64,000 nucleotides of DNA, taken from Metridium senile (taxonomy: Eukaryota > Cnidaria > Anthozoa > Actiniaria > Metridiidae). Shown piece by piece: positions 8,869 through 64,000 of the stretch; positions within the stretch are counted from its first letter, which is position 1; each line of letters opens with the position of its first letter. The position numbers and the translations under genes are program-made. Below the pieces are notes generated by a model that saw only the letters and a program-made list of their open reading frames with translations, was not told the origin of the DNA and made no database searches. Location of the stretch: NCBI GenBank assembly GCA_949775045.1, contig OX459101.1, forward strand, positions 8,223,601 to 8,287,600, written 5' to 3'.

Positions 8869-14630
<5,762 letters not shown>

Positions 14631-16926: not shown

Positions 16927-19900
16927 ATGGCGCTGTCAGTAGCAACAAATTTACCGTACTTTTCATACTCTTTTAGAAACTTAAAAGCCTATTTATTGAT
17001 AGTTTTAGTAGCTTTATTATCCCAATACACACATGGAAATGCAAAAGGTAAGTTTCTTGCTTTATTAAGGCTGTAATAGTGAGATTTTTGAAGGCAAGAT
17101 TCAGGAAAGTCGACAGTTTTGACAGTAACGTTTTTGTATCTTTTCCAGATGATTTTAAATACGTAACCTGTGGAAGTGTTGTAAAACTTTTAAACCTTCA
17201 ACATAATGTTAGATTACACTCCCATGAAGTAAAATACGGTTCTGGAAGCGGGCAACAGGTAAATTTGTTGATAAAACCATCATTTGTGATTGTGTATGTT
17301 TGGTCCAAAAAAGTCTTCTATTTCAACCCATAAAGAAGCTTTAAAATATTTTAATTTGTGTTTTTCTTCTTCTAGTTATACATTTTTATTCACATATTCG
17401 TAGAGAAAAAGTAATTTGTGGTTAGCGTATGCTCCAATACCTGGATAGAAACTGCATCACATCGTATATATATTGAGCAATATTTAATCCATTTCATAAG
17501 TGCCTTGTGTAAATGTTAAGCTAATTTTCGCATTATAAGCTTAAATTTCTGCCAAACTGAATATTTAAATTTTGTTTTTAATATTTTTATCACTTGAGTT
17601 TGTGTAATTTTATATTTACTGTTATTGTGTAAGCACGGAAAAAATTCTCGATTATGCAAATGATTTTCGTGGAAGCGTACGATTTGCTAACAGAAATGAA
17701 TGGAATTTTTGAAATCTGGAGTGCTCTCATTGGACAATGTCAATTCGAATATTTTTTACGCTCTAAACGATCTTACAAAATCCTTAAAATTTAGAAGATT
17801 TTATTAGTTTTAAGTATATATTATATTATATTTTAAAATTGTTGAATTTGCTAATTATTATTTATATGAATTATTGAAATTTTTATATCCACATGTTAAA
17901 TGAAAAATGATTTTTTCTTTGCTCGACTCTTTGCTCAAATGTTTTCAACATTCACTGTTGTTTTCATCATAAAATTATCATAATGATGATAATTATTACT
18001 AACATTATGATCACCACCACCAACATAATCATCACCATCACCATCACCCTTTTTACAGTTCCGTTCAGTGACCACAAATGATAGTTGCAAGTCGAGGTTG
18101 TAGTTGCTACGCATGTTGAATTAGAGTTTTTTTGTGTGGCAACGCAAACTTCACCTTTGAACTATTATTCTAGGTCTCTGAACGGAACTATAAAAACGTT
18201 TTATTCATTCTATTCCTATCATTTCCCTCCAATCAGTGATTTAGTTATATCATCCATTTATTTTCAGACAGTTGATTGAATGGTTTATTGATTTATTTAT
18301 TTCACAGTCTGTAACAGGAGTTGAAGTCCCTGATGATGGTAACAGTTATTGGGTGATAAAAGGACGAGTAGAAGCTCCCTGCAAAAGAGGGTTAGATCTT
18401 TACACTGATTCTACATAATAAACCAAATTTCAAAAATAAAAAAAAACACTAAATTCAGTATTTACATCGCACACATCATAGAGTGATTCTCATAAACCTG
18501 TGAAATATACTTACATTGTAAGCATATTACTCACTACTTCACTCTCATTCTTTTGTTTTCTATTTATTTTTTTTGACTATTACACATTAATTAATACACG
18601 GTTTAATTAACTCTCATATGATGCAAGCAAACAATATTTATTAGCTTTATTATTTATTAGCTTTATTTATTATTTTCCAAAGAGGATTGTTTACATACAT
18701 ACATAGAAGTCACCCATTTTATTAGTGCACAGCTTTTGGAGCAAAGGGCTTAGCGAAGATTTATATATCTATAAAATGAAGCACTGGGGAGGGAGGGTGA
18801 AAAGAGCACACCAATGCCTGCCTGGGAGACCAGCTTGCTTCTAACTGTGGGAACTACCAATGCTAAATTTTAGATCTTTTTTTTTTTAAACTAGGACACC
18901 AGTAAAGTGTGGAACTACAGTCCGAATACAACATTTATCAACAAAGCGTAATCTACACAGCCACCACTTTCAGTCACCAATATCACATAATCAGGAGGTC
19001 AGCGCATTTGGAGAGGATGGGGTTGGAGATAACCTAGATGATTGGTCTGTTGTATGTTCCACTAAACACTGGGAAAGGAAGGATACTGTCCGATTCAAGC
19101 ATAAAGAGACCAATGTGTAAGTATGCTGGAGATAAGATAATTAACAATAATAAACAGGTTCCCATTTAAATCTGTACTTTCCCATTTAAATCTGTACTTA
19201 TACAAATTTTGTTGATGTGTGCTAAACACACAGATCAACCAATCAGAGAAGTTCACTTCACAAATAATATACTCTGATTGGTTGATCTGTGTGTTTAGCA
19301 CACATCAACACAATTTGCATTGCATAAGTACAGATTTAAATGGGAAAGTACAGATTTAAATTGGAAAGTACAGATTTAAATGGGAACCTGTTAATAATAA
19401 TAATAGAAGATGCTTATATAGCGCACTATATGTAGTCTTGGTGCGCTTTACAGAGAACAAAAAATAGATTTAAATTTAAAACATAACAAGATGTTTAGAG
19501 GGAAGTCGTAGTTACAGTCATAGTGTTCTTATTTGGGAAAAAGGTAGGTCTTCAGCTTAGTTTTAAATGTTGCCAGTGAAGGTTGGTTCTTGAAATCTTC
19601 AGGAAGAATGTTCCAAAGACGCAAAGCAGCATACTCAAACCATCGATCACCATAACACAACATAAGATTACATTACAGCAAAAACATTTGTTGCATCGTG
19701 ACCAGCAAATTGTGAATTTCTATTTGATTTGGGTTTATTCGATCTGTCAATCATTTTGGAGGCAGGGATGTATGTTACCGGTAACTTGATGGGTCCGAAT
19801 TTCATTTAAATGCACAATATGCTGGTTGTGATGCTACAGTAGTTTTCATTGGAATGTTTTTTTTTTGAAAACTATGAAGGATGTGTGCATTGATATTGTG

Positions 19901-32653: not shown

Positions 32654-32869
32654 AACAGGTTCCCATTTAAATCTGTACTTTCCCATTAAAATCTGTACGT
32701 ATGCAAATTGTGTTGATGTGTGCTAAACACACAGATCAACCAATCAGAGTATATTATTTCTGAAGTGAACTTCTCTGATTGGTTGATCTGTGTGTTTAGC
32801 ACACATCAACACAATTTGCATTAAGTACAGATTTAAATGGAAAAGTACAGATTTAAATGGGAACCTGTT
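32654..32869. mobile_element. Palindromic MITE (AACAGGTTCCC family), copy 3
   Basis: Same termini and arms as copy 1. Flanked by CAAT on both sides (32650-32653 and 32870-32873). Confidence 0.87.
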
Positions 32870-48550: not shown

Positions 48551-51500
48551 ATGACTCAAATATCAGCTATTCAGGCGATTATTTCTTTATTCATTCTCCA
48601 AGTAGGATGTACTAATGGTAAGGAGTATCATCTTTTTTCAATAATCTTCAAATTTACGGCACATTTCGTCGCCAAAAGCTATAGAGTTCAGATGGCTCAC
48701 AGGGTGCTAAAACCACTTCACCACTTCCACTGATCGGTTGTTTTTGCTTACCACTATTGATAAAATAGGTTTTTGTATGTATATATGATATAAGAATTGT
48801 ATCTATAACAGTGAGTTTTGCTTTGAAAATGAATTTGGTTTTAATGAGTGAGATTTCTAATCAGAAATTTCCGCACTTTCGAATGCCAAATTAGTTGAGC
48901 TGCGCTGTCAAAACTAACCTATAAGTTCAAATTTTATCATGATTAATTTGGTTGATTATAGTAATAGATTTTAAATACTGTATACTACATATTATAGAAT
49001 ATATTCATTACGTCTTTTGGCGTATTTGAGTATATGATTTTGAAAATTTCATATTCGTTTGTTGGCCATCTAAACATTATAGTTTGAAATGGACCGTAAC
49101 CTTAATTTTGCCGGTCTCAACTGTCAAAAAATTATATAAAATTTGTTTATGTAGCTGTAATTTATTATCATGGATATGTAGTTGTTTTGGACCTTGTTGT
49201 AGTAGAATTAGAAATTATGGTTTAAATTATGGGAATATTTTTGCAAAGAAGGCAGGGACACTACAACAATAGCTTATGCCATTTAACCATGGGCCCTTTA
49301 GTATAGATAGGTCAGACCATACACACCAGCAACTTCATAGGCTGCTCTATATCCTTATAGTGTATTAAACCCTGACCATGATTACCCTAAGTGACTGGCT
49401 TATATTACTTATACTAACACACTACACTCTCAAACCTGTATTGGGCATATTGGGGGATGCAAAAGAACCACTGAGGATGTAACAAAGCCTGGCCATGACC
49501 ACCGTCCTTGTCTGGGTCACACCAACACATACTACACTCCCTATCCTTTGTTGGGGGATGCAAAAGAACCACTGAGAATGTAACAAACTCTGGTTGTGAC
49601 CACCCTCAGTCTGGGTCACACCAACACACACTACATTTTCAAACCTTTATTGGGTGATGTAAAAAAACACTGAGGTTGCAATAAATGCTGGTTGTGACCA
49701 CTTCCATTAACTGGTTCATATATACCAACACAGTTCACACAACACATAACTACTTACCATAAATTATCAAATATTGAGATATTTCACATTGGAAGTAAGC
49801 TAAGTATGTGAATATCAATTACAATCATCATCAAAAGCTGTTTATTGATTCATATCTCCATTTATATTTTACAAACAGGCAATATAAAAGATATATTGAA
49901 AGATTACAATACATTGACAAAGACAGACATTCATCATGTTGTTACAAGAAGAGATGCCGAAGGGTTGCTAGATAAAGTTGTCTCATTTAATACCCTTGGA
50001 AGGTTTGTTTGTTATGCATTTTACAATATGGAAAATTACAGTGTGACGCGCGGTACTGTGGCCACCCAAGAAACTTTTGAGAAAGTATTTAACCACATAA
50101 AAACCTCGCTCATCTTCGCCACTTTGTATGAAATAGGTTTCCTACTTTCGATAACTTTCTCAAAAGTTTCTTGGGTGGCGACGGTACCGCACATCACACT
50201 GTAATTATTATTAAATGAATGGGAATGTGAAGTATAGTTTAGTAAACGAGCAGGAGTGTTTTATCAGGACTTAAAACCATGAGGCGAAGCCAAGTGGTTT
50301 TAGACCTGATAAAACACGATCTGCGAGTTTTTTAAACGGCTTTAAAAACCCCAACCTATATTTAGTGTTTTTGTAAAACAAAATCAAGGATTTATGAAAA
50401 ATTATTAGAAAAAATTCAGGTTAAAGTTTATGTAAATTAGGGTGAATCTTTATCTTCAGATATAAAATTAATGAATAATTAATGAGCAATTGACAAAAGA
50501 ATTCATGTCCGTGACGGAGGTTGTAAATCTCATACAGATTTCGTCCTGATTTGCATAAATTTCAACTTGAATTTTCTCGGCCAGATTTACATTTATCTTG
50601 ACAATTTTAGTAAAATATGAAAGAACTAACGTTGGACTTTCATAAGTTCTATACAATATTCGCGTCCGATCTGTATCCTCAGTTATAAAATTAATGAATA
50701 ATTAATGAGCAATTGACAAAAGAATTCATGTCCGTGACGGAGGTTGTAAATCTCATACAGATTTCGTCCTGATTTGCATAAATTTCAACTTGAATTTTCT
50801 CGGCCAGATTTACATTTATCTTGACAATTTTAGTAAAATATGAAAGAACTAACGTTGGACTTTCATAAGTTCTATACAATATTCGCGTCCGATCTGTATC
50901 CGATATACAACGGCTCGTCTTCGACTCGCCGTTGTATATCGGATACAGATCGGCCGCTCATATTGTATATATTACTTAAAACACTTGTCACAGTTACGAT
51001 TTCTTTTGTCAATTTCTCATGAATTATTAATGAGGTTTTGAATATATTGAGAAATGAATGATTGAATAATATGATTGTAGAAGCTATAAAATTTTGTCTT
51101 TTTTTGTTAGCTTTAGAAGGCCTCCTTGTCAATTAATTATACTAATCATATTATAAAAAATATAATATATATATTAATTGTGTAAGTCTGTCTAGGTCTA
51201 ATGGTTGTATTAACAGCTGAAGTGATGTCTTGTCTTTGATCTATCTATAATTTACAATATAATATTTATTTAATATAATATAAATTGTAGATAGATTAAA
51301 GACAAGACATCACTTTTTTGGAGTTTAACACTTACGCGATCATCAGACAGTCTTTGATCTTTTATAACGCTCTACATGTAAATGTATCGAGCACTTTACT
51401 GACAGTATAGATCTATACATCCAGATATATATTATGTAATATATAATGTATATGTATGACAGAATAAAAAACTCATGAATAAAAATAGTTGCCACTTTTG

Positions 51501-54500
51501 AATTACAGAGACAGTGTTAATTAGTTTATAATGCACAATAAAGTACATCTATAGGTGTATGCATTTCAATAGAAACCTATTACATTCATTGTTAGCATGT
51601 TGTATTTAATGAATTAGTAGGCATTGTCTTATATGCCTATAGTAGCAGGCCTTTCTCCCTAAACAATGTCTGTTCATTATAGAAATTTTCTGCTTCACCT
51701 GACACCAAATGAAGGTTTATTCTCTGAAAACTTCAAAGCAGTAGCTGTTGGCAGTGACACCAGTGAAGGCATTCTAGTTGACAAGCTGAGCTTTTATAAG
51801 GGCTATGTTGAAGGTAGGTAGAGAATGTGGGAAAGGTTTTAGTTTTTTATTGTTCAGCCCATCCTCGGAAACCCAGGGGTAATCTTCTGTCGCTTGTTTC
51901 TTGCTCCCAGAATAAATACCCCTGGGAACGTAGTCTGTTGGAGCTTGTTCCAGAAGTCAAAATTCAGCTCTTATTAGGTCGACCAATGAAAATCAAGATA
52001 ACCATTTAAAGAAAGTCGTTAAATAAGTTTGAATTTTGACTAGTTCCGGAACAAGCTCCAACAGACTACGTTTCCAGGGGTATTTATTCTGGGAGCGAGA
52101 AACGAGCGACAGAAGATTACCCCTGGGTTCCCAAGGATGTGTTCAGCCAATATCAGCAAAGATTTGATTTACGTTTTTAAGGGCACTTGAAAAGCCCTTG
52201 AATTTTAGAAAATCAGCAAAAACTCTAGTATTGCAAATTAAAGTTAAGTAAAAATTCTAGTATTGTACATCATTTTCGTAAAATAATTTCAACAAGATTA
52301 ATTAAAATCGCAAAGGAATTATCCGACAGGCATCCCTGCATCTATTGAGGGGTACTGGGAGTGACCGTCCGAGAATGCAAAGTTGTCAAAGTTATCTCAA
52401 AAAGTGACTAGTTTTTGGTCCTTGAAAACTCCTTATATTTTGTTTACTTACATCAGCACGAATCCTGATAATTATTAGATATGGTACCATATACTTAAAA
52501 AAGAAATTTCCAGGATTTTCCAGGAATAAGCTCACACTATCCGTCTTAAAACAGGTGAAGAAAAGTCTCTGGTCAGTGCTCATCTTCAGGATGGTATGAT
52601 GACAGCATCAATAGCAACACCTAATGAAACCTATGTTATTGAGGTAAAAAGGAAATGTCAATATTAAAACAAAGTTCATGGAGTTTTTGAAATAATGGCT
52701 CAATTTAATGTTTTGCACCTTCAATGTGACAGTGATATTCTTCAATAACTCTGCTGGAAAAAGAATCATAGATGATAGTCTCAGTGTTGGCGTCATGTGT
52801 GATTATATGGAAACAGCTAGACTAGTGTGCAATTGTGTGAGATCCTACAGTTGATTGTTCTCCACTATCTATCGGGTGCGATCAGCAAGAAAAATGACCA
52901 GTGTAATGAAGGTTCCGGTTTAGTAATGTTTTATTTTCAACTCTTGCAAAATTTGGACCAAAAATTATGTTCAGTTTAAGGGAGGCTTTCATTTATCATT
53001 TATTAGTGTATGGGGGGGTCGACAATATTGAGGGGGTCATGTTATCTTCAGAAGCTACATAGGGGGGTTGATACTAATTGTATGCAGCTTTACTTATAAA
53101 CTGGGCAAATGTGGGGGGGTTAATGATATTTTTTACCAAGCAGGAAGGGAGGCTGCATAATATTTTGTCGCCCCCTCCCTCCCCCACCATACACTAATAA
53201 AGGAAAGCCCCCTATCAAGGAGAATTATATTTTTTTTTAAATTTTGACATGTCTTTTTCTAGCCATCTTGGAGACACCTAGACCATACTCACCAAGATGA
53301 GATGATTGCTTACAGACACTCTGATGTGAAATTTAACTTTACTACTGGTAACACAAAGTAAGTATCTGTATGGCACAGAGGACAGACAGACACCCAGATA
53401 GACAGACAAATGGACATTTAGGAAAATACAGACAGATAAACATACAAGCAGACAGGTAGAGAGACATACGTCCATACAGACAAGTAGAGAGATATACAAA
53501 AATACAGTTATATGGACGCACAGACATATACCCAGACAGTTGGACATTCAGAAAATACAGACAGACAAACATACAGGCAGACTGGAAGAGAGACATACAA
53601 CTTATGAGCAGAGAGTTATAGGACATTCAGGCCAATAGAGACAAACATACACTGTCAGACAGACACCTAGACAGTCAGTCAGATGGACATTCAGGCCAAT
53701 AGAGACAAACAGACACTGTGAGACAGACACCTAGACAGTCAGTCAGATGGACATTCAGGCCAATAGAGACAAACAGACACTGTCAGACAGACACCTAGAC
53801 AGTCAGTCAGATGGACATTCAGGCAAATAGAGACAGACAGGCAGATGGACACTTATGCAAAATTAATACAGACAGACAGAGATAGTACTAAAAGGCAGGT
53901 GGGCAATGACAAGTAGACAAGTTAACCAAAAGGTGGACAGAAAATTACTGAAAAATAGCATTTAAACTAGACATACAAGGTGGACAGACAGTTAGATATA
54001 CCAATGGATACACAGGTAGATAGAGATAGTTGATTAGCAGACACACAAACAGGAAACAAACTAAAAAAACTCATGAATTATTAATGAGCAATTTGCAAAA
54101 GAAATTATGACCATGACGAGTGTTGTATATCTGATACAATACATTAATGTTGTAGAATCCTAACTGGTATAAGTTTTACTTGAAATTTCTTGGCAAGATC
54201 TACTTTAATCTTGAAAATTTTGTTAAAATTTTGCGTCTGCGTCTGTATTGTAAAGGCTATATGCCAATAGAAAACAGCCGCTCATGTTGTAAACAAACTT
54301 ATAATATTTTGATATATAATACATTGTTTGCATCATCAGGGATGGTCAAAAGAAATTTAATTTTTGTGGACATACCTCACCACCAAACCAACACCATGGC
54401 GATGAGCAGAGTAAGTAGCTATTCTCATTGCATACATAATTAGCATTGCATACAAAATTATATTAATTCCTTAAATTCTCATGTGACTAGTCCGATATTT

Positions 54501-57500
54501 GTTTAATAATGCTTTGCGGCCCCACTGTATAAAGCAGCCGCTCACTCAAGGTCAGTGCCACTTACCGTTATTTGGCAAGTGTTTTTTTCGCACCACCCAT
54601 CCCCCTGGCAGCAGCATCCTTGCTGCATACCTGTCAGAGGCAGCGCTTATTCAAGTAAATACAGTATGTAGTGTTCTTAACAAGAAAAAATGATATATTT
54701 TTTCTTTCTTAAACATTATAGACCATGACCATGACACCTTTAGAAGCAGACGTGCAACTACACCAACCAAGCTAAGATGTCCATTGGTATTGGTTGCTGA
54801 TTATAGGTTTTTTGAGAAAATGGGACAGTCAAGTAAAGCAAACACTGTCAATTATATGGTAAGTTACTTTATAATAAACAATAAATGGATGCATGATTGA
54901 ATGAATACCTGTAATAGCTGTTATTACAGTTATATGCAAATGATTTCAAACAATGGATTCAAATCGAGGCTTTCGGGCAAACCTAAATTGTTTTCGCCCG
55001 AAAGCCTCTACTACAACCCATTGTTCAAAATCATTTGCATATAACTGTAATAACAGCTTTTTATGATTGAAGTAGTTAATAAATGATTGAATTAATTAAT
55101 TAATATTATAAGAGTAGGTTTAAGGCCATCTACTACTGTTTTTATGTTCAGATCTTAAGCTTTCGTCAGACACCAACATCATCAGAAGAAAGAGTGAAAA
55201 ATTGTACCTACTCTTATAATACTTATCACAATGCTACTGAAGGACAACTTAAATAATATTAATATAATGATTGAAGGAATATATAAATCAGTGAAATGTA
55301 GTTCTCTGTAAGGGAAATAATTTCCTAAATGGACGAAAGGCCCTGGGCCTAATATGCAAATTGCAGTTTATGCTAATTAGGAGTTTGTTATGTAAGTTGT
55401 GAAATGTATTATTCGACCATTGTGGTCCAAGATTTGAACCAAACACGTCTAATACGTGCAGTTCTTAAGTTTTTTCTAGTACTAGTTACAATTTCATTAT
55501 GTCACATATACCATGTATATTCAAGCAATTTGTCAATAAAGTGAGATACGTTGGCTTGGACCGACCACTGCACTCAGTGTGCTGTCTTGTTGGGACTTGA
55601 GGGAATGTTAGGAATGAATTTATACTTTAATCAGTATCCCATTATTGTGTTTTTAGATTGGTATTATTGATAGGGTAGATATTATCTACAAGCAAACTAC
55701 ATGGAGTGTCGGCTACGGCAACTATGGATTTGAAATTGAAGAGGTATACACTTGTTCATTAATAATGATTACATTTTATGTTAAACAGGTTCCCATTTAA
55801 ATCTGTACTTTCCCATTTAAATCTGTACTTATGCAAATTTTGTTGATGTGTGCTAAACACACAGATCAACCAATCAGAGAAGTTCACTTCAGAAATAATA
55901 TACTCTGATTGGTTGATCTGTGTGTTTAGCACACATCAACACAATTTGCATAACAACAGATTTAAATGGGAAAGTACAGATTTAAATGGGAACCTGTTGT
56001 TATTACTAATTGTTAATTCATTTAATGAAATGATAAATATATCACACACACCAAGTTAAGCTCTAACAATGCAGTCTTCAACCAAAATATGCTATCAATA
56101 AATATATGATATAAATAGGTCCTTGACCCTTTGATAATTTGAGAAAGTTAATATGTCATACACTATAAATTGATATTAGGTAATGTTTATAACATGAATG
56201 TATAAATCTACAATCACGTGCAAAATACGTTGGGACATTATCTGTTTTTTACATGAAAAATATTTCAACATCATTTTTCCGTTTCCCCCTCTCCCCCGTA
56301 TCAATGTTGAATTGTGGGAATGTGAAACGGTTGTCATTTGAAAGACCAATCAACATTGCTTAAGGGGGAAGGGGGTTTGCAAATCAAATTGATAGTTTTT
56401 GCAAACAAAAACACTCATAAAAAAGTGACATTGTCCCAACAATTTTGCACATGATTGTAGCCTAGAAATGTCAAGTTAAAACTTATGCAGATCAGGATAT
56501 ACAACAGTGCCACTCATATTGTAAACAATGCTTATAACACTCATCATTACCTTTTATCATTCATGAATTTTTTAATAAAATAGTGTTTGTTTATCTCACA
56601 AATGCTAAGGTTTTGGACAGCAATGTTTTGGTCGCTACTGCTAGACTTGATCAAACAATGTATAAATTGATAACAAGAGAAAAAAAGGCTGATATCATTT
56701 GTGCTATGGAGTGTTGAGAGTAGAAATTTTTTTTTGAAATAGTTGTAATGTATATTGTTATGTTTCTTGTAACAGATTAAGGTGCACGAAGTACCAACCA
56801 AAACGTCAGGCATGCAAAGACACTACAATGAGAAGAAAGATCTGTGGAATATCAAAAAACTACTGGAGGTATATTTATGCCCTTTCTTCCATATCATCTT
56901 AATCATCAAAAAGATGGGGAAATTGCAATAAAATAAGTACCATATTTACTTGAATAAGTGCAGTGGGGCTTATTAACTTTTTCTTGATCTCGCTGTCCAC
57001 TTTTTGGGGACAGAACTATAAATTATTACTGGGGAGATAACACAATGGGCGAGCAGTGAAATATAATTACTTTGAACTGAAGAATATAGCTTTTGGTAAA
57101 GACTTATTTCAAATACTGTTCTAGAGTAACATTATAGCTTTAAAATGTGGTGCTTATTTGAGGGCGGAACTTATTCTGCGGCAGCGCTTTTTTGAGTAAA
57201 TACAGTATTTAGAATGGATAAAGATTTTTATTTGCTTTGGCAAGTTATTTGCATGTATTCAAAAGGGAAAAAAAGAAAAACCATAAGAAAAAAAGAAAAA
57301 AAAAACTCACACAACTATCGCAATGATCTCCCATGATGAGCACAGCTCTTGGAGAAAACTCAGAGTAAAATATATGTTTAAAAAATAAATAAATAAATAA
57401 AGATTTTTTCTTTTATGTTCTTACAACCTGTAGGTGTTCAGTTACCAATCGAATTGGAAGAAATACTGTTTAGCTCATTTGTTTACCTATCAAGACTTTG

Positions 57501-60500
57501 ATGAAGGTGTTATTGGCCTTGCATATGTGGGTAACTCTCGACGTACAGCAGTTGGTGGAATATGCACTGAGGGTAATGTATATATATCAATGAATACTAT
57601 TGAACTTAGTCTAGTAATGTTTAAATCAAATATTAAGTAATATTAGATAAGTAATATACTAGATAAATACCATCGTTTGCACCTACCCGTTAATGGTCAC
57701 GATGAAAAACATGTTCTGTCTAGATGTAAACTTCCAAAGTTTGGCGCCAAACTTTGCAATCTCCTAATGCAATCCTCTAAATAAATTCAATTTGTTGAGG
57801 TAAATTTCGCATATTACATATTTTTGTTGCATCTGTTAAAGGATAGATGCAAGTGCAGTACATTTCTATAAATTTCTAGCCTATTTTCATGAACGTGGTT
57901 TACAAACATGCAAAGTTTGGGGTGCCAATCTTTGAAGTTTGACTGCGAGACAGATCATGTTTTTGTTGCAACCGTTAAAGGGTAGATGCAAGCAACGGTA
58001 GATAGTAGATAAACATAAATTCTGAACCGAAAAAACCTTGCAGTCATGCAACTGAATTATGTGGATATTTACAAAATGGTAGAAAATATTAAAATCACAC
58101 TTTATGAATATATAAACATGTTATAAAATCTATTTTCAATGATGTGACTAGCTTGAGATATATCTGGTTAGTAGAAATTACATTTATTTAATCAGATATA
58201 CATATAACAGGTTCCCATTTAAATCTGTACTTTCCCATTTAAATCTGTACTTATGCAAATATTTTTGCAGATCAACCAATCAGAGAAGTTCACTTCAGAA
58301 ATAATATACTCTGATTGGTTGATCTGTGTGTTTAGCACACATCAACACAATTTGCATACTTAAGTACAAATTTAAATGGGAACCTGTTTTATATAATATA
58401 CAAACCCAAAATCAAATTAAAATATACAATTTGTAAGCCGCTATGCAACCATTTTCACTGTAACATAAAACAATAATGTTGATACTGTATTCGTCACTGC
58501 TGATTAATATTTATCATTATTTTTTGTAGATTACAGGACCGGTGGTCGCACATTGTATTTAAATACAGGTTTAAGCAGTAGTGTCAACTGGGGGAGAAGA
58601 GTGTTGACGGAGGAGGCAGACATTGTCACAGCTCATGGTATGTCACATCATTCACAAGAATAATAAACAGGTTCCCATTTAAATCTGTACTTTCCATTTA
58701 AATCTGTACTTATGCAAATTGTGTTGATGTGTGCTAATTAAACACACAGATCAACCAATCAGAGTATATTATTTTTTAAATTAACTTCTCTGATTGTTTG
58801 ATCTGTGTGTTTAGCACACATCAACAAAATTTGTATAAGTACAGATTTAGATGGGAAAGTACAGATTTAAATGGGAACCTGTTAATAGTAATACGCTCTT
58901 GCTTATAATAGAGTACAAATACTAAAAGTGTGCAACATAAATACCACTAAATACTGCTTAATTATGCAAATTCTTTTGTTCTCTATTGTTTAATCAACAC
59001 TATTTAAGGGTAAATAGTACAAAGTATTGCACACTTTTAGTGTTTGTACTCTATGTAACACTGTAATATATGTAAAATAATATGATTATGTAATATCTAT
59101 GTCACAGTGTGTGAAAGAGCAGTGTGTACTAGTCTTTATAATAAACACCAGTCCCTCAGGATGATTTAAAAAATACTGGTTAATTCATTCTGTATTTTTA
59201 ATTTCATATTGGTGTGCTCACTATCTGGAATAATCTACAGAATTTGGTAGGTATATTGTTTCTATAATCATGATTCACCTAGACTTAAGTTGGCTGGAGG
59301 GCCATCTATATGTAGTGTCATAGATGTAGTTGACAATAAAAGGTTTCTGTTGTTTTAAAAGTAAACTTGTTATGTTCTTTTCTTTTCAACATCCAATGCA
59401 TTTTACAGCGCAAAGCCCAAAAGTGTGACCGCAGATAATTTATTCACATTCTTTTGACATGTTTGTCTGTAGCTGCTTTGGATTCAAATAGACTTCATTC
59501 TAGCTATTTTAACTTCAAAATTCATTTGAAGATTGACATTATTCTTGTCTTGTGATTCACAGTGAGAAATGTTGACATTTAAGTAATGATGTGTGTAAGA
59601 AGTAGGCAGGCAAACGGCAATGGAATGCAGAAAGGTGCTAATTGTGCATTGTCTAATCCGTCCATCTCATTGGTTAAAACATGAAAATCTGCCATAATTT
59701 CAAAACTAAGCGGATTTTTTAATATTTTATTTGATACCTAATCCCTTTTCATCTAAGATTTCCTGAGCCTTTATATATCAAAATTTCTATGTGGGGAACA
59801 TATCGAATTGTAAACATCTTTTGGCTATTGTTTTGAGCGCTTATGATTGGACGAGATATTTTAGTAAAAAAGAAACTTTGTTCCAAAACAGAGTTTTTGC
59901 ACATTTTATTTTTAAAATGTGTTACCTATAGGCCAATATACTTTCAGTCTGAAAACTGAGACATTCTTATGTGGGGAAGTTGCTATTGCCGCAGAACAAT
60001 AGAGAGTTGCCTACTTCTTACACACATCATTACTTAATCTAGAGGAGTTGATTGAAAAGATGTAGAGAAAAGATGAATAAATTATCTCCGGTCATACTTA
60101 TGGGATTTCCACATAATATTGTAGTGTAATGTGTGTGAAAGTAAAAGTAATTTAAAATAGAATTGAAATTGCATTCCAGGTCATAACTTTGGCAGTGAAC
60201 ATGACCCAGACAATGATGAATGTGCCCCAAGTGAGCGAAGTGGCGGCAAGTTCATAATGTACCCTGCATCCGTCAGTGGACAGAGGTCTAATAATAAGGT
60301 ACATAGTTTACACTGTTGTAAAGTTGTTCCAATTGTAAATATTCATTAATGAATAGAAATAATAAGATTGATTATTAGATATACCTAGTTTAGTTAATTC
60401 AATTGTATATTATTAGGTATACCAAAATCAGCATATATATGTATTTATTATATACAAGTTGGAAACCTACATAGAAGGAGCAATTTCATTGGTTCGCTAT

Positions 60501-63500
60501 CTAGTTTGATTGAGAAAGCTAGATTAAAACACTGTTTTTAAATTTTTTTGAATTCCTCCGTCGTTCTAAAATATAGAGTAGTTTTAACACTAAAATTATG
60601 CTATTTTCAGCCGTTAAAAAAAAATATTGAGGGAGAAAATGGCAAAAACAGTGGAGAACTTCGATGTGTTTTGAATACATTTTGATTTGCCGTCACACGT
60701 CATTGAGCGCGCACTCTGTATTTTTACTTTCGATTAGCTGTTATTTTATCAAAATAAAACGATTGAAATTCTCATTTTGTGTTGAGGTTTCCTCCTTGTT
60801 TCCTCCTTTCCTCCTCGAGGACTCGCCGTTTGGTAGATATTCCTTCGGCGAATAATTGTTAAATATTTTAATGGTCCAGATTGGAAAAAAGTTCTGCTTT
60901 ATTTGTAACCCAATAAAGATTTATTGTTATATTATTATTATTATTGTAATGGAGTAGAAATATAATTATATATTCAATGAAATAATGAGTAGTTTGATTC
61001 AATGCATTTAGCCATTCATGTAATATCTTTATTAAATTCAATTGTGACTTTTATTTATTGTTCCATTTTCATACATTCATTGATCAATTAATTAATTAAT
61101 TCCTTCCTTCCTTCCTTAATTAGTTCATATATCCATTCATTTATCCATTCATTCATTCATTCATGTTTTTGTTCTTTCCTTCACTCATCCATATAATCTG
61201 TGCATTATATTAATTCAATCAATTAATTAATTCCTTCCTTCCTTCCTTCATTAATTCATATATCCATTCATTTATCCATCCATCCATCCATTCATTCATG
61301 TTTTTGTTCTTTCCTTCACTCATCCATATAATCTGTGCATTATATTAATTCAATCAATTAATTAATTCCTTCCTTCCTTCCTTCATTAATTCATATATCC
61401 ATTCATTTATCCATCCATCCATCCATCCATTCATTTTTTTGTTCTTTCCTTCACTCATCCATTATATTTATTGTTTATCATTCATTCATTTATTCAATAA
61501 AGTTGATCCATTGATTAATTCGTTTTTATCTATCTTTCATCCATTCATTTATTCATTCATTAATTCATCAATTCATTTATCCATCCATTTATTCATTCAT
61601 TCATTTTTGGTTCTTTCCTTCACTCATCCATTATATTTATTGTTTATCATTCATTCATTTGTTCAATAAAGTTGATCCATTTATTTATTCGTTTTTATCT
61701 ATCTTTCATTTATTCATTTATTCATTCACACATTTACATATTATTGGTCGTTAATTCATTCATTTGTCTATTAATTCATCCATTCATGGATTCATTTAAA
61801 CCAATCCATTTGTGTATTATGATCTTTATCTTTCTTTCCTTCCATTCATCTATTTATTATTGGTCATTTGTTCATTCAATTTGATAAATATCTATTTATT
61901 TATTTCACAGCTATTTTCACCTTGTAGTAAGCGACAAATCACAGAAGTCCTCCGGTTAAAGTCAAAGTATTGCTTTACTGGTGAGAAATGATAGTATAAA
62001 TTTGTCCAACTCCGTAAAATATCAATATAGCCCACATATTCATGTTCTGTGTCTAATCTAAATCTCAATATGTTTAAGTATAGTACGTATAGTCAGTTGT
62101 TAAGTGGATAATTTTTGGAGCATGAGTTCCTACCAGTTCGATCGATCCCCAGTAGATTTCTTTTCATTCTTTGTAGCCTTGAATAGATGTAAATAACTGT
62201 AAATTGGAGAATTTTTTTAAATATTTTTATTCAACAAAAAGTAACAATAACAAAATTAAAATAAATATTACATATATATATGGAAACAGCAATTTTTTTT
62301 TTACATTTATGATATATATATATATATACTATAAACATGTGTAACAATAACAGGAATACATGACAAAAAAAAAAAAGAAGAAAAAAATGAAAAATAAATA
62401 AAAATAAAATAAAAAATTGGAGCATTGATGTGTGCACCATTGGCTTTATGGGAGACCAGCTTACTTTAGTTGAAGGAACTACTGACGCTAAATAATAGTG
62501 CTTTTCTTTTCATATTTTTATTCTGAACGCTCAGACATTTTGACAGATTGATACAAAACAATATTCATTATTCAATATTCATAAAACCATGACATCTACA
62601 GTATATCAAAAACTGCTATTAATAATTAATACCTTTCTTTTAGAACCAAGAGAGAAGATCTGTGGCAACTACAAGAAAGAATCAGGAGAAGAATGTGACC
62701 CAGGCAATCTTGGAACAATAGCCTCTGCTTGTTGTACTAAGGATTGTAAACTAAAGGAAAAAGCAGAATGCAGGCAAGTAGAACAGTTAATCAGTCTGTT
62801 AGTAAGTCAGTTGGTAGTCCACTAAGGCACTTGTTTCATCTTGAATCAATGGGTCAGTCCATCAGTTTGTAGGTCAGTAAGACAGTTAAACAATCAGTCA
62901 GACAATTGATTATAAAATAAAATTATAAAACTATGTAGTATCTTTCTATCATTCAGTATGTCAGTTAGTTATTGATTCATCAATCAGCAATCATTCAGTC
63001 GCTCAATTGATTAGTCTGTCAGTCATGATCAGTTAGACAGTCATTCATTCAGCAAGTCAGTCAGCTAGTCAGTCAGTAAGTCAGTTAGTCTTGATCAATC
63101 TGCCAGTCAATCAATTCAACAACAAACCTATATGACAGACCAACTAACCAAATGACCAAACAACCAACCAACTGATCACCAACCCACTGATCTGACTTAC
63201 TGACCGGCTGATAGTCCAAACAAAGAACCATTGACTCAGATTGTAAATTACATCAAATTTGATAATGTTTGTAAATGTGGTGAGGATGACTACATAGGTT
63301 AAAAACTCAGTATTTGCATCAGGTTATAAACCAAAATTAATCTGTAAATTATATTTTTAGTGATGGCTATGATTCCCCTTGTTGCAAGAATTGCAAGTAT
63401 GCCACAGGAACTGTTTGTCGAAGAGCAGATGCAAACTTTTGTCAGGCAAAGACTACATGCAAAGCTAAAAATGCAAATTGTCCCGATGCAGACCCTCTCC

Positions 63501-63525
63501 CTGATAATACTACTTGTATTGAAAG
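48551..63525 (+). CDS. ADAM17: ADAM17-like (TACE) metalloprotease, exons 1-16, continues past the window
   Basis: Exons: 48551-48617, 49879-50002, 51683-51813, 52555-52643, 53263-53357, 54340-54410, 54722-54858, 55657-55743, 56776-56868, 57434-57572, 58530-58637, 59241-59246, 60180-60298, 61911-61980, 62644-62773, 63361-63525. All junctions are in phase (1631 nt, about 543 residues). It has a signal peptide, a prodomain with the cysteine switch [11 protein letters not shown], a furin-type site RSRRA, the metalloprotease domain ([38 protein letters not shown]), GHNFGSEHD, and a disintegrin region ([25 protein letters not shown]). [11 protein letters not shown] is typical of ADAM17 rather than ADAM10. 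ADAM17 sheds TNF- and EGFR-ligand-type proteins at the cell surface. Two oddities: the active-site Glu comes only from a 6-nt microexon, and exon 15 ends with a GC donor (AG|GCAAGT). The membrane segment lies beyond the right edge. Confidence 0.93.
49420..49700. repeat. Minisatellite of about 110-bp units in ADAM17 intron 1
   Basis: Three units contain GGGGGATGCAAAAGAACCAC and CTGGGTCACACCAACACA or close variants. Confidence 0.8.
50039..50201. mobile_element. Tc1/mariner-like MITE with CAGTGTGACGCG ends
   Basis: CAGTGTGACGCGCGGTAC on the left mirrors GTACCGCACATCACACTG on the right, with TA on both sides. The arms continue through CACCCAAGAAACTTTTGAGA and its complement. It begins about 37 bp after the ADAM17 exon 2 donor. 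Confidence 0.8.
50457..50965. repeat. ATTAATGAG-type repeat, tandem 223-bp duplication
   Basis: Two copies at an offset of 223 bp share AATAATTAATGAGCAATTGA and CGTCCTGATTTGCATAAATT. Only the second continues into the terminal hairpin (CGATATACAACGGC with its complement, then GGCCGCTCATATTGTA). It is the best-preserved hairpin of the family in this window. Confidence 0.8.
51228..51315. repeat. Palindrome with AAGTGATGTCTTGTCTTTGA arms
   Basis: AAGTGATGTCTTGTCTTTGA and TTAAAGACAAGACATCACTT face each other, continuing through TCTATCTATAATTTA and TAAATTGTAGATAGA. An AT-only centre joins them. Probably a MITE. Confidence 0.65.
51860..52139. mobile_element. Foldback element with 9-bp target duplication (MULE-like MITE)
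   Basis: The direct repeat TGTTCAGCC flanks it (51851-51859 and 52140-52148). The ends CATCCTCGGAAACCCAGGGG and its complement start arms of more than 100 bp that hold CTCCCAGAATAAATACCCCT and TAGTCTGTTGGAGCTTGTTC. A 9-bp duplication and long arms point to the Mutator superfamily. It lies in ADAM17 intron 3, close to exon 3. Confidence 0.82.
52980..53214. mobile_element. G/C-tract foldback, second copy
   Basis: GGGAGGCTTTCATTTATC on the left, then TTATTAGTGTATGGGGGGG, mirror CCCACCATACACTAATAAAG and GAAAGCCCCCT on the right. It lies in ADAM17 intron 4 and is related to 26040-26405. Confidence 0.65.
53360..54050. repeat. GACAGACA-type minisatellite in ADAM17 intron 5
   Basis: About four units of roughly 63 bp contain CATTCAGGCCAATAGAGACA and CAGACAGACACCTAGACAGT, flanked by looser GACAGACAGA repeats. 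It starts 3 bp after the exon 5 end. Confidence 0.85.
54071..54297. repeat. ATTAATGAG-type repeat copy
   Basis: It begins GAATTATTAATGAGCAATTT and ends GCCGCTCATGTTGTAAAC. The terminal hairpin found in other copies is shortened here. Confidence 0.65.
54916..55058. repeat. Foldback with AGCTGTTATTACAG arms
   Basis: AGCTGTTATTACAGTTATAT and GCAAATGATTT face AAATCATTTGCATATAACTG and TAATAACAGCT. Inner arms GAGGCTTTCGGGC and GCCCGAAAGCCTC also pair. It lies in ADAM17 intron 7. Confidence 0.75.
55095..55250. repeat. Repeat with ATTATAAGAGTAGGT terminal inversion
   Basis: TATTATAAGAGTAGGT on the left and ACCTACTCTTATAATA on the right are exact inverted complements. The interior has AGCTTTCGTCAGACACCAAC, a text I associate with retroelement ends in marine invertebrates. 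Class not resolved. Confidence 0.5.
55784..55998. mobile_element. Palindromic MITE (AACAGGTTCCC family), copy 4
   Basis: Same termini. Flanked by GTTA on both sides (55780-55783 and 55999-56002). It lies in ADAM17 intron 8. Confidence 0.87.
58206..58388. mobile_element. Palindromic MITE (AACAGGTTCCC family), copy 5
   Basis: It has the family termini with an internal deletion and one damaged arm (ATTTTTGCAGATCAACC). The flanks are ATAT and TTAT, one mismatch. It lies in ADAM17 intron 10. Confidence 0.8.
58676..58883. mobile_element. Palindromic MITE (AACAGGTTCCC family), copy 6
   Basis: Same termini. Flanked by AATA on both sides (58672-58675 and 58884-58887). It lies 38 bp after ADAM17 exon 11. 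Confidence 0.87.
58911..59051. mobile_element. MITE, TA-GAGTACAAACA family
   Basis: GAGTACAAATACTAAAAGTG on the left mirrors CACTTTTAGTGTTTGTACTC on the right, with TA flanks. It lies between MITE copy 6 and the proposed microexon. Confidence 0.75.
59241..59246 (+). CDS. ADAM17: Six-nucleotide microexon completing the ADAM17 zinc site (proposed)
   Basis: Exon 11 ends ACAGCTCATG and exon 13 starts GTCATAAC. A direct join would give [11 protein letters not shown], lacking the two residues between the first His and the Gly of HExGHNFGxEHD. Inside the intron, CTACAG-AATTTG-GTAGGT supplies a standard acceptor, six bases and a donor. Including them restores [12 protein letters not shown] in frame. 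No other 6-nt fit was noticed in the intron. Confidence 0.7.
61070..61900. repeat. CATT/CCTT minisatellite in ADAM17 intron 13
   Basis: Units of about 120 bp hold TTAATTCCTTCCTTCCTTCC, TATATCCATTCATTTATCCA and TTTTTGTTCTTTCCTTCACT, repeated three to four times and then decaying into CATTCATT. It ends about 10 bp before the exon 14 acceptor. Confidence 0.88.
62830..63240. repeat. CAGTCAGT-rich stretch in ADAM17 intron 15
   Basis: Imperfect TCAGTCAGTCAG/TTAGTCAGT repeats, with the complement CCAACCAACTGAT-type text near 63120-63200. No exon was seen in it. Confidence 0.75.
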
Positions 63526-63540
63526 GTATAGACAATCAGT

Positions 63541-64000
63541 AAAATGATAGAAAATCATGATGATAGTGATGAAAATCATGATGATGGTGATGAAAATCAT
63601 GATGATAGTGATGAAAATCATGATGATAGTGATGAAAATCATGATGATAGTGATGAAAATCATGATGATAGTGATGAAAATCATGATGATAGTGATGAAA
63701 ATCATGATGATAGTGATGAAAATCATGATGATAGTGATGAAAATCATGATGATAGTGATGAAAATCATGATGATAGTGATGAAAATCATGATGATAGTGA
63801 GGAAAATCATGATGATAGTGAGGAAAATCATGATGATAGTGAGGAAAATCATGATGATAGTGAGGAAAATCATGATGATAGTGATGAAAATCATGATGAT
63901 AGTGATGAAAATCATGATGATAGTGATGAAAATCATGATGATAGTGAGGAAAATCATGATGATAGTGATGAAAATCATGATGATAGTGAGGAAAATCATG
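63541..64000. repeat. 21-bp minisatellite at the right edge
   Basis: More than twenty units of AAAATCATGATGATAGTGAT plus G or GG, with GATG/GAGG variants, starting about 15 bp after the exon 16 end. It continues past the window. The minus strand reads open as a seven-residue Ile-rich repeat, which is an artefact. Confidence 0.95.

Follow-up and report, generated by a model that had tools for sequence, protein, structure and literature searches.

A probable six-nucleotide microexon carrying the catalytic glutamate codon of ADAM17 in the sea anemone Metridium senile

The ADAM17 gene and its split zinc motif

Where does the ADAM17-like protease encoded in this part of the Metridium senile genome get its catalytic glutamate, when direct joining of the exons on either side of the active site gives HGHN? 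In the window (the whole stretch of 64,000 nucleotides that was analysed), 16 exons joined following the GT-AG rule make an open frame of 543 amino acids. The best solved relative of the joined protein is ADAM17 (PDB 8snl, 2i47; E 1.9e-125, residues 26-542), and ADAM10 structures match it far lower (E 1.2e-49). Alignment to human ADAM17 placed ADAM17-like prodomain, catalytic and disintegrin sequence within this frame, and homologues extend well beyond the last residue of the 543-aa part contained in the window. We consider it highly probable that the glutamate comes from a genuine microexon (an internal exon of about 3-30 nt) of 6 nt, which is included as a rule when the anemone's single ADAM17 gene is spliced and is common to other hexacorals. 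The features involved are the following (a slash marks an exon boundary).

48551..63525, plus strand: ADAM17/TACE orthologue, 16 exons including the putative 6-nt one; its 3' part lies beyond the window end
58530..58637, plus strand: exon 11, ending with the first zinc-ligand His codon plus G (CATG/GTATGT)
58638..59240, plus strand: intron 11-12, 603 nt, GT...CTACAG
59241..59246, plus strand: candidate microexon, AATTTG, which would complete GAA (catalytic Glu) and give TTT (Phe) and the first base of GGT (Gly)
59247..60179, plus strand: intron 12-13, 933 nt, GTAGGT...CATTCCAG
60180..60298, plus strand: exon 13, starting GT CAT AAC TTT GGC, which completes the Gly and brings the second zinc-ligand His
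55784-55998, 58205-58395 and 58663-58886, no strand assigned: copies of a foldback element in introns 8, 10 and 11, with arms containing TTCCCATTTAAATCTGTACT
59579..60037, no strand assigned: element of high copy number within intron 12-13, bounded by perfect terminal inverted repeats of 30 bp and with TTAA at both ends

Apart from the microexon, the gene looks, on its sequence, like an ordinary ADAM17. In the 389-Mb genome, in which the window lies on contig C7, there is one ADAM17 locus: 15 of the 19 matches are the larger exons of this gene, and the remaining four are ADAM10-like genes on C3, C5 and C15. A second ADAM17 copy as the source of the glutamate was rejected, as the genome search returned this locus and the ADAM10-like genes only. 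In the ADAM10-like gene on C15 (L018:760-1020), three tandem copies of the active-site segment (...THELGHSFGAK/GT) follow one another at a spacing of about 98 bp, each in a different frame. Another peculiarity is found after exon 15 of the ADAM17 gene, where the intron has a GC donor in place of GT (62774-62779, CAG/GCAAGT), making it the one GC-AG intron of the gene.

Several repeats were also found in and around these introns. The three foldback copies (D1, D2 and I13) are related to one another, the one at 58663..58886 lying within intron 11-12, and 20-nt units similar to those of the foldback recur at 12216-12415, 19159-19386 and 32660-32860. Of 2765 candidate places in the genome for the high-copy element at 59579-60037 (I17), 40 were scored, and 39 of these, other than the element itself, match it at 95-98% identity. 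Just behind exon 16, a 21-nt tandem array (TGATGAAAATCATGATGATAG, 21.7 copies, 63545-64000) runs up to the window end. A scan of viral contigs gave three weak loci.

The fit of the candidate six-nucleotide exon

Exons 11 and 13 are separated by 1542 nt. Within this gap, AATTTG stands at 59241-59246 with CTACAG before it and GTAGGT after it, and the sequence up to the start of exon 13 reads CATTCCAG followed by GT CAT AAC. The exon ends and the CTACAG/AATTTG/GTAGGT fit described in an earlier note on this DNA proved exact in coordinates and letters. The splice sites on both sides of AATTTG are canonical (AG/GT) and, since all phases are 1, inclusion and skipping would both stay in frame: with the 6-mer included the product is HEFGHN, with it skipped HGHN, and the HExxHxxGxxH zinc motif of ADAM17 (an M12B metalloprotease) is complete only in the former.

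To estimate how often such a fit arises by chance, the 1542-nt intron was shuffled 4000 times at the dinucleotide level, and any arrangement giving H-E-x-G-H counted as a fit. Any fit of this kind appeared in 10.0% of the shuffles, one with F, L or I as x in 3.4%, and one with F in 1.0%; a fit with both splice scores equal to or better than those observed was present in 1.4%, and an F/L/I fit with an equal or better summed splice score in 0.4%. The "few per cent" proposed in the earlier note is about right, the shuffles giving 0.4-10% depending on the criteria. When fits closer than about 40 nt to the end of an intron or of the window were disregarded, no H-E-x-G-H fit turned up in the other introns that the gene has in the window (0/13), and the whole window held four on the plus strand and one on the minus strand. 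Chance alone is not negligible and leaves the matter unsettled; the comparative evidence is decisive.

The same intron was searched for other ways of supplying the residues. It holds 57 candidate internal exons of 3-120 nt that are stop-free and in frame, and HExGHN results from 59241-59246 alone. Two more candidates would produce an HExxH: a 6-mer at 59118-59123, with HEQCHN, which lacks the Gly, and, with no GHN, a 27-mer at 59892-59918, where HEFLH is followed by a longer insert. When the flanking exons were extended by multiples of three up to 90 nt, no acceptor extension was found for exon 13, and the single donor extension of exon 11 (33 nt) hits stops. Alternative donor or acceptor extensions and the other internal exons were ruled out on these results.

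Exon boundaries in other anthozoans and the probable history of the two introns

The homologue set comprised 120 listed of 1093 proteins, from a protein collection clustered at 90% identity. The closest proteins among the matches listed are from Actinostola (79% identity), Actinia (68%) and Nematostella (61%), with an Exaiptasia match of 82% over 45% of the query. HExGH occurs in 119 of the 120 listed homologues (102 HEFGH, 9 HELGH and 8 HEIGH), and the motif Gly is kept in all 119 that have the motif. The four anemone-like homologues among them (P0002, P0003, P0004 and P0007) all have HEFGHN, as the microexon predicts, and this is the sequence found in the Exaiptasia, Actinia and Nematostella entries. 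P0003, labelled as coming from the sponge Haliclona caerulea, shares 85% identity with P0002 from the anemone Actinia tenebrosa and is probably, judging by this similarity, an anemone sequence that bears a sponge name.

The sole listed homologue without HExGH is the closest one, P0001, the Actinostola gene model (79%), which reads VTAHGCPGHN at this point, i.e., VTAHGCPGHNFG. Such a reading would result if the gene predictor, blind to the 6-nt exon, had spliced from the CATG end to an acceptor lying 9 nt before exon 13. An ADAM17 model of Porites lutea, P0246, is odd at the same point (VTAHRTYV) and ends soon after VTAH (VTAHRTYVMTPV); it may be a second model spoilt by the microexon, or else stem from a pseudogene.

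Two further protein searches (100 and 40 proteins listed) provided short frames that span an exon and the presumed intron, the taxa of most unnamed frames being assigned by similarity. Among the frames leaving exon 11 into the intron, the first boundary follows the His in all 11 coral-/anemone-like ones, a count that omits P0246 (a gene model and not a read-through). In all 11, VTAH is followed by Gly and, after it, by one of K, T, M, N, I and E, that is, by a codon with A or G first, both of which are demanded by CATG/GTR. At the second boundary, where frames enter exon 13 at GHN, the preceding residue has an NNA codon, required by an AG acceptor, in 19 of 20 cases (13 S, 3 P, 1 L, 1 T and 1 I), although this test is weak alone, because 12 of the 20 amino acids pass it; the misfit is P0242, with F before GHN. 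The frames counted are partly non-independent, since P0207-P0209 overlap and the pairs P0253/P0254 and P0235/P0239 are near-identical.

Several of these unspliced frames could be paired with spliced sequences. P0221 matches unspliced P0241 exactly over 36 aa and then continues with EIGHNFGS, P0221 itself running intronless from exon 10 into exon 11. P0008, which has EI, is exact over 35 aa to P0236/P0237 on one side and over 36 aa to P0205 on the other, and four further EI sequences have an exact partner on one side: P0006 with P0228 (43 aa), P0010 with P0229 (43 aa), P0011 with P0227 (38 aa) and P0009 with P0235 (35 aa). The frames of P0006, P0008 and P0010 run without interruption for 752, 752 and 748 aa, and the longest contigs of these three measure 4058, 2555 and 2451 nt, too short for so intron-rich a gene; the three are hence most likely derived from mRNA. 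P0009 and P0011 might come from gene models and not from cDNA. P0240 (exon 11) and P0226 (exon 13) share one value for the length of the longest contig, 2513836.

Two residues between two conserved phase-1 ends correspond to a missing stretch of 6 nt, and therefore the microexon is very probably present in stony corals as well, where EI would stand in place of the EF of anemones, the coral 6-mers being deduced from flanks and products. What can be read directly from the sequences is the fit in Metridium together with two conserved boundaries around two residues found in spliced relatives. The main proposal of the earlier note, a 6-nt exon with the catalytic Glu codon in an ADAM17-like protease, gains support from these same two boundaries and from the EI of the spliced coral-/anemone-like relatives.

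Seven other frames (P0243, P0245, P0247, P0248 and P0250-P0252) start directly at E[LF]GHN after the presumed intron; in them the His/Glu intron is present and the one inside the Gly is absent. In four of the seven, 18-24 of the 24 residues past the boundary agree with the octocoral Paramuricea (P0125). P0250 resembles the Paramuricea-like frames, yet agrees in 11 of 24 without gaps; P0243 matches the brittle star P0052 in 22 of 24, and P0245 has no clear origin. Since the octocoral- and brittle-star-like frames have the first boundary only, the second intron was probably gained, within the Gly codon (G/GT) and 6 nt downstream of an older His/Glu intron (CAY G/AR), in the hexacoral line. One further frame, P0244, from an animal without assigned taxon, shows the Gly boundary, so that the dating of the gain is tentative. 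Going by the boundaries, the microexon seems to have been retained since before the split of sea anemones and stony corals. An intron common with the ADAM10-like paralogues of this genome was ruled out, as HExGH is uninterrupted there and neither intron is present.

Splicing, skipping and comparison with known systems

The birth of a second intron in the Gly codon, 6 nt after the His/Glu intron, would have left AATTTG as an exon. An exon of 6 nt is hard to recognise across the exon. We infer a two-step order of intron removal, in which the upstream intron (603 nt) would be removed first, joining AATTTG to exon 11; GTAGGT would then act as the donor of an exon of normal size, and the downstream intron (933 nt) would be removed in the second step. 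With this order of events, so short an exon would never have to be recognised from its two sides at once, which is sterically difficult, and the product would be an ordinary HEFGHN-type zinc protease. A model combining intron definition with stepwise splicing has been proposed for the 1-nt exon of APC11 (PMC4674806).

The acceptor of the microexon is among the weakest of the gene, with a score of 1.47 where the 14 other acceptors range from 1.24 to 6.47 (leave-one-out), so that it stands above only one of the 14; 36% of all AG sites in the gene span score at least as high. Its donor, GTAGGT, which under a recursive-splicing (RS-exon) scheme would have to serve as the regenerated donor at the junction once the first step is complete, is mid-range (5.48, above three of the gene's 14 GT donors). 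Constitutive microexons of the human brain have been reported to have stronger splice sites (PMC8831610), and the weak acceptor hence counts against plain constitutive splicing unless intronic enhancers compensate. It is mainly for this reason that we keep in consideration a regulated switch, proposed in the earlier note as an on/off control of catalysis, in which the microexon would be skipped in some cells or stages to give an in-frame, Glu-less ADAM17 acting as a decoy or dominant negative. Both forms would be in frame and a neural-regulated 6-nt microexon is known in animals (PMC8831610), but on balance we find such a switch improbable. The direct exon 11-13 join was found in none of the 260 listed proteins (120 of 1093, plus 100 and 40). 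This counts for little, since clustering at 90% identity would conceal an isoform that is shorter by two residues. Skipping would also leave the first two zinc-ligand His separated by one residue, and not by the three of HExxH proteases; with the spacing of these ligands changed, the skipped form would have a defective zinc site rather than a clean loss of Glu. Moreover, the eMIC-dependent programme of neural microexons is reported to have arisen in bilaterian ancestors (PMC8797185), and this known route would be unexpected in a cnidarian. For these three reasons, constitutive inclusion ranks far above the switch. We give similarly little credit to the idea that hexacorals have kept the Glu microexon because its inclusion, limited by the weak acceptor, is regulated and sets the balance between active sheddase and inactive decoy.

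More doubtful still is that the 6-mer is a chance fit in a gene that makes an inactive, Glu-less ADAM17 by joining exon 11 to exon 13. An E-x-G fit of any kind in 10% of the shuffles and an Actinostola model that likewise lacks the Glu would be in keeping with it, but spliced EI sequences come from coral-like genes whose exons end at the same places, the Exaiptasia, Actinia and Nematostella entries have HEFGHN, and the rest of the ADAM17 protein is intact and conserved. Just as hard to credit is a supply of the two residues by another exon, a case raised in the earlier note, or by a shifted splice site of the same intron, since none of the 56 other in-frame, stop-free candidates, including the 6-mer that gives HEQCHN, yields HExGHN, and neither flanking exon has a usable extension.

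A normally included microexon at this site would mean that an exon near the lower size limit holds a residue essential to an enzyme, providing a natural test of the way in which a spliceosome can process 6 nt reliably. The Actinostola model, in which an active sheddase seems to have been made to look like a pseudoenzyme, is a warning of what automatic annotation can do in anthozoan genomes; one practical outcome is the microexon-aware annotation of ADAM17. In the open-licence literature, covered by titles and the starts of abstracts, we found no report that describes a microexon in ADAM17 or in any protease of a cnidarian, which leaves absence unproven; in the available text of the two closest-looking papers, ADAM17 appears as one reference only in the first and is absent from the second.

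Human ADAM17/TACE (PDB 8snl, 2i47) resembles the anemone protein in prodomain, catalytic domain and disintegrin, and has the HExGHNFGxEHD that is obtained here with the microexon included; in the anemone gene this motif would be interrupted by a pair of introns with 6 nt between them. Constitutive exons of very small size are already known (PMC4674806, PMC9929638). In 2015 a 6-nt exon was given as the shortest constitutive exon on record up to that time, in a paper describing a 1-nt exon in APC11 of Arabidopsis for which sequential splicing was proposed (PMC4674806), and MPC1 has a microexon of 4 nt (PMC9929638). The exons of APC11 and MPC1 are, as reported, likewise tiny and apparently included as a rule, whereas the anemone exon would carry the catalytic Glu of a protease, predicted across sea anemones and corals. 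The eMIC-dependent neural microexons are also small and of a length divisible by three, but that programme is described as bilaterian in origin (PMC8797185) and the anemone case gives no signal of regulation. The misannotated microexons of plants belong to different genes and, as here, are reported to be conserved, missed by gene prediction and needed for the protein (PMC8831610).
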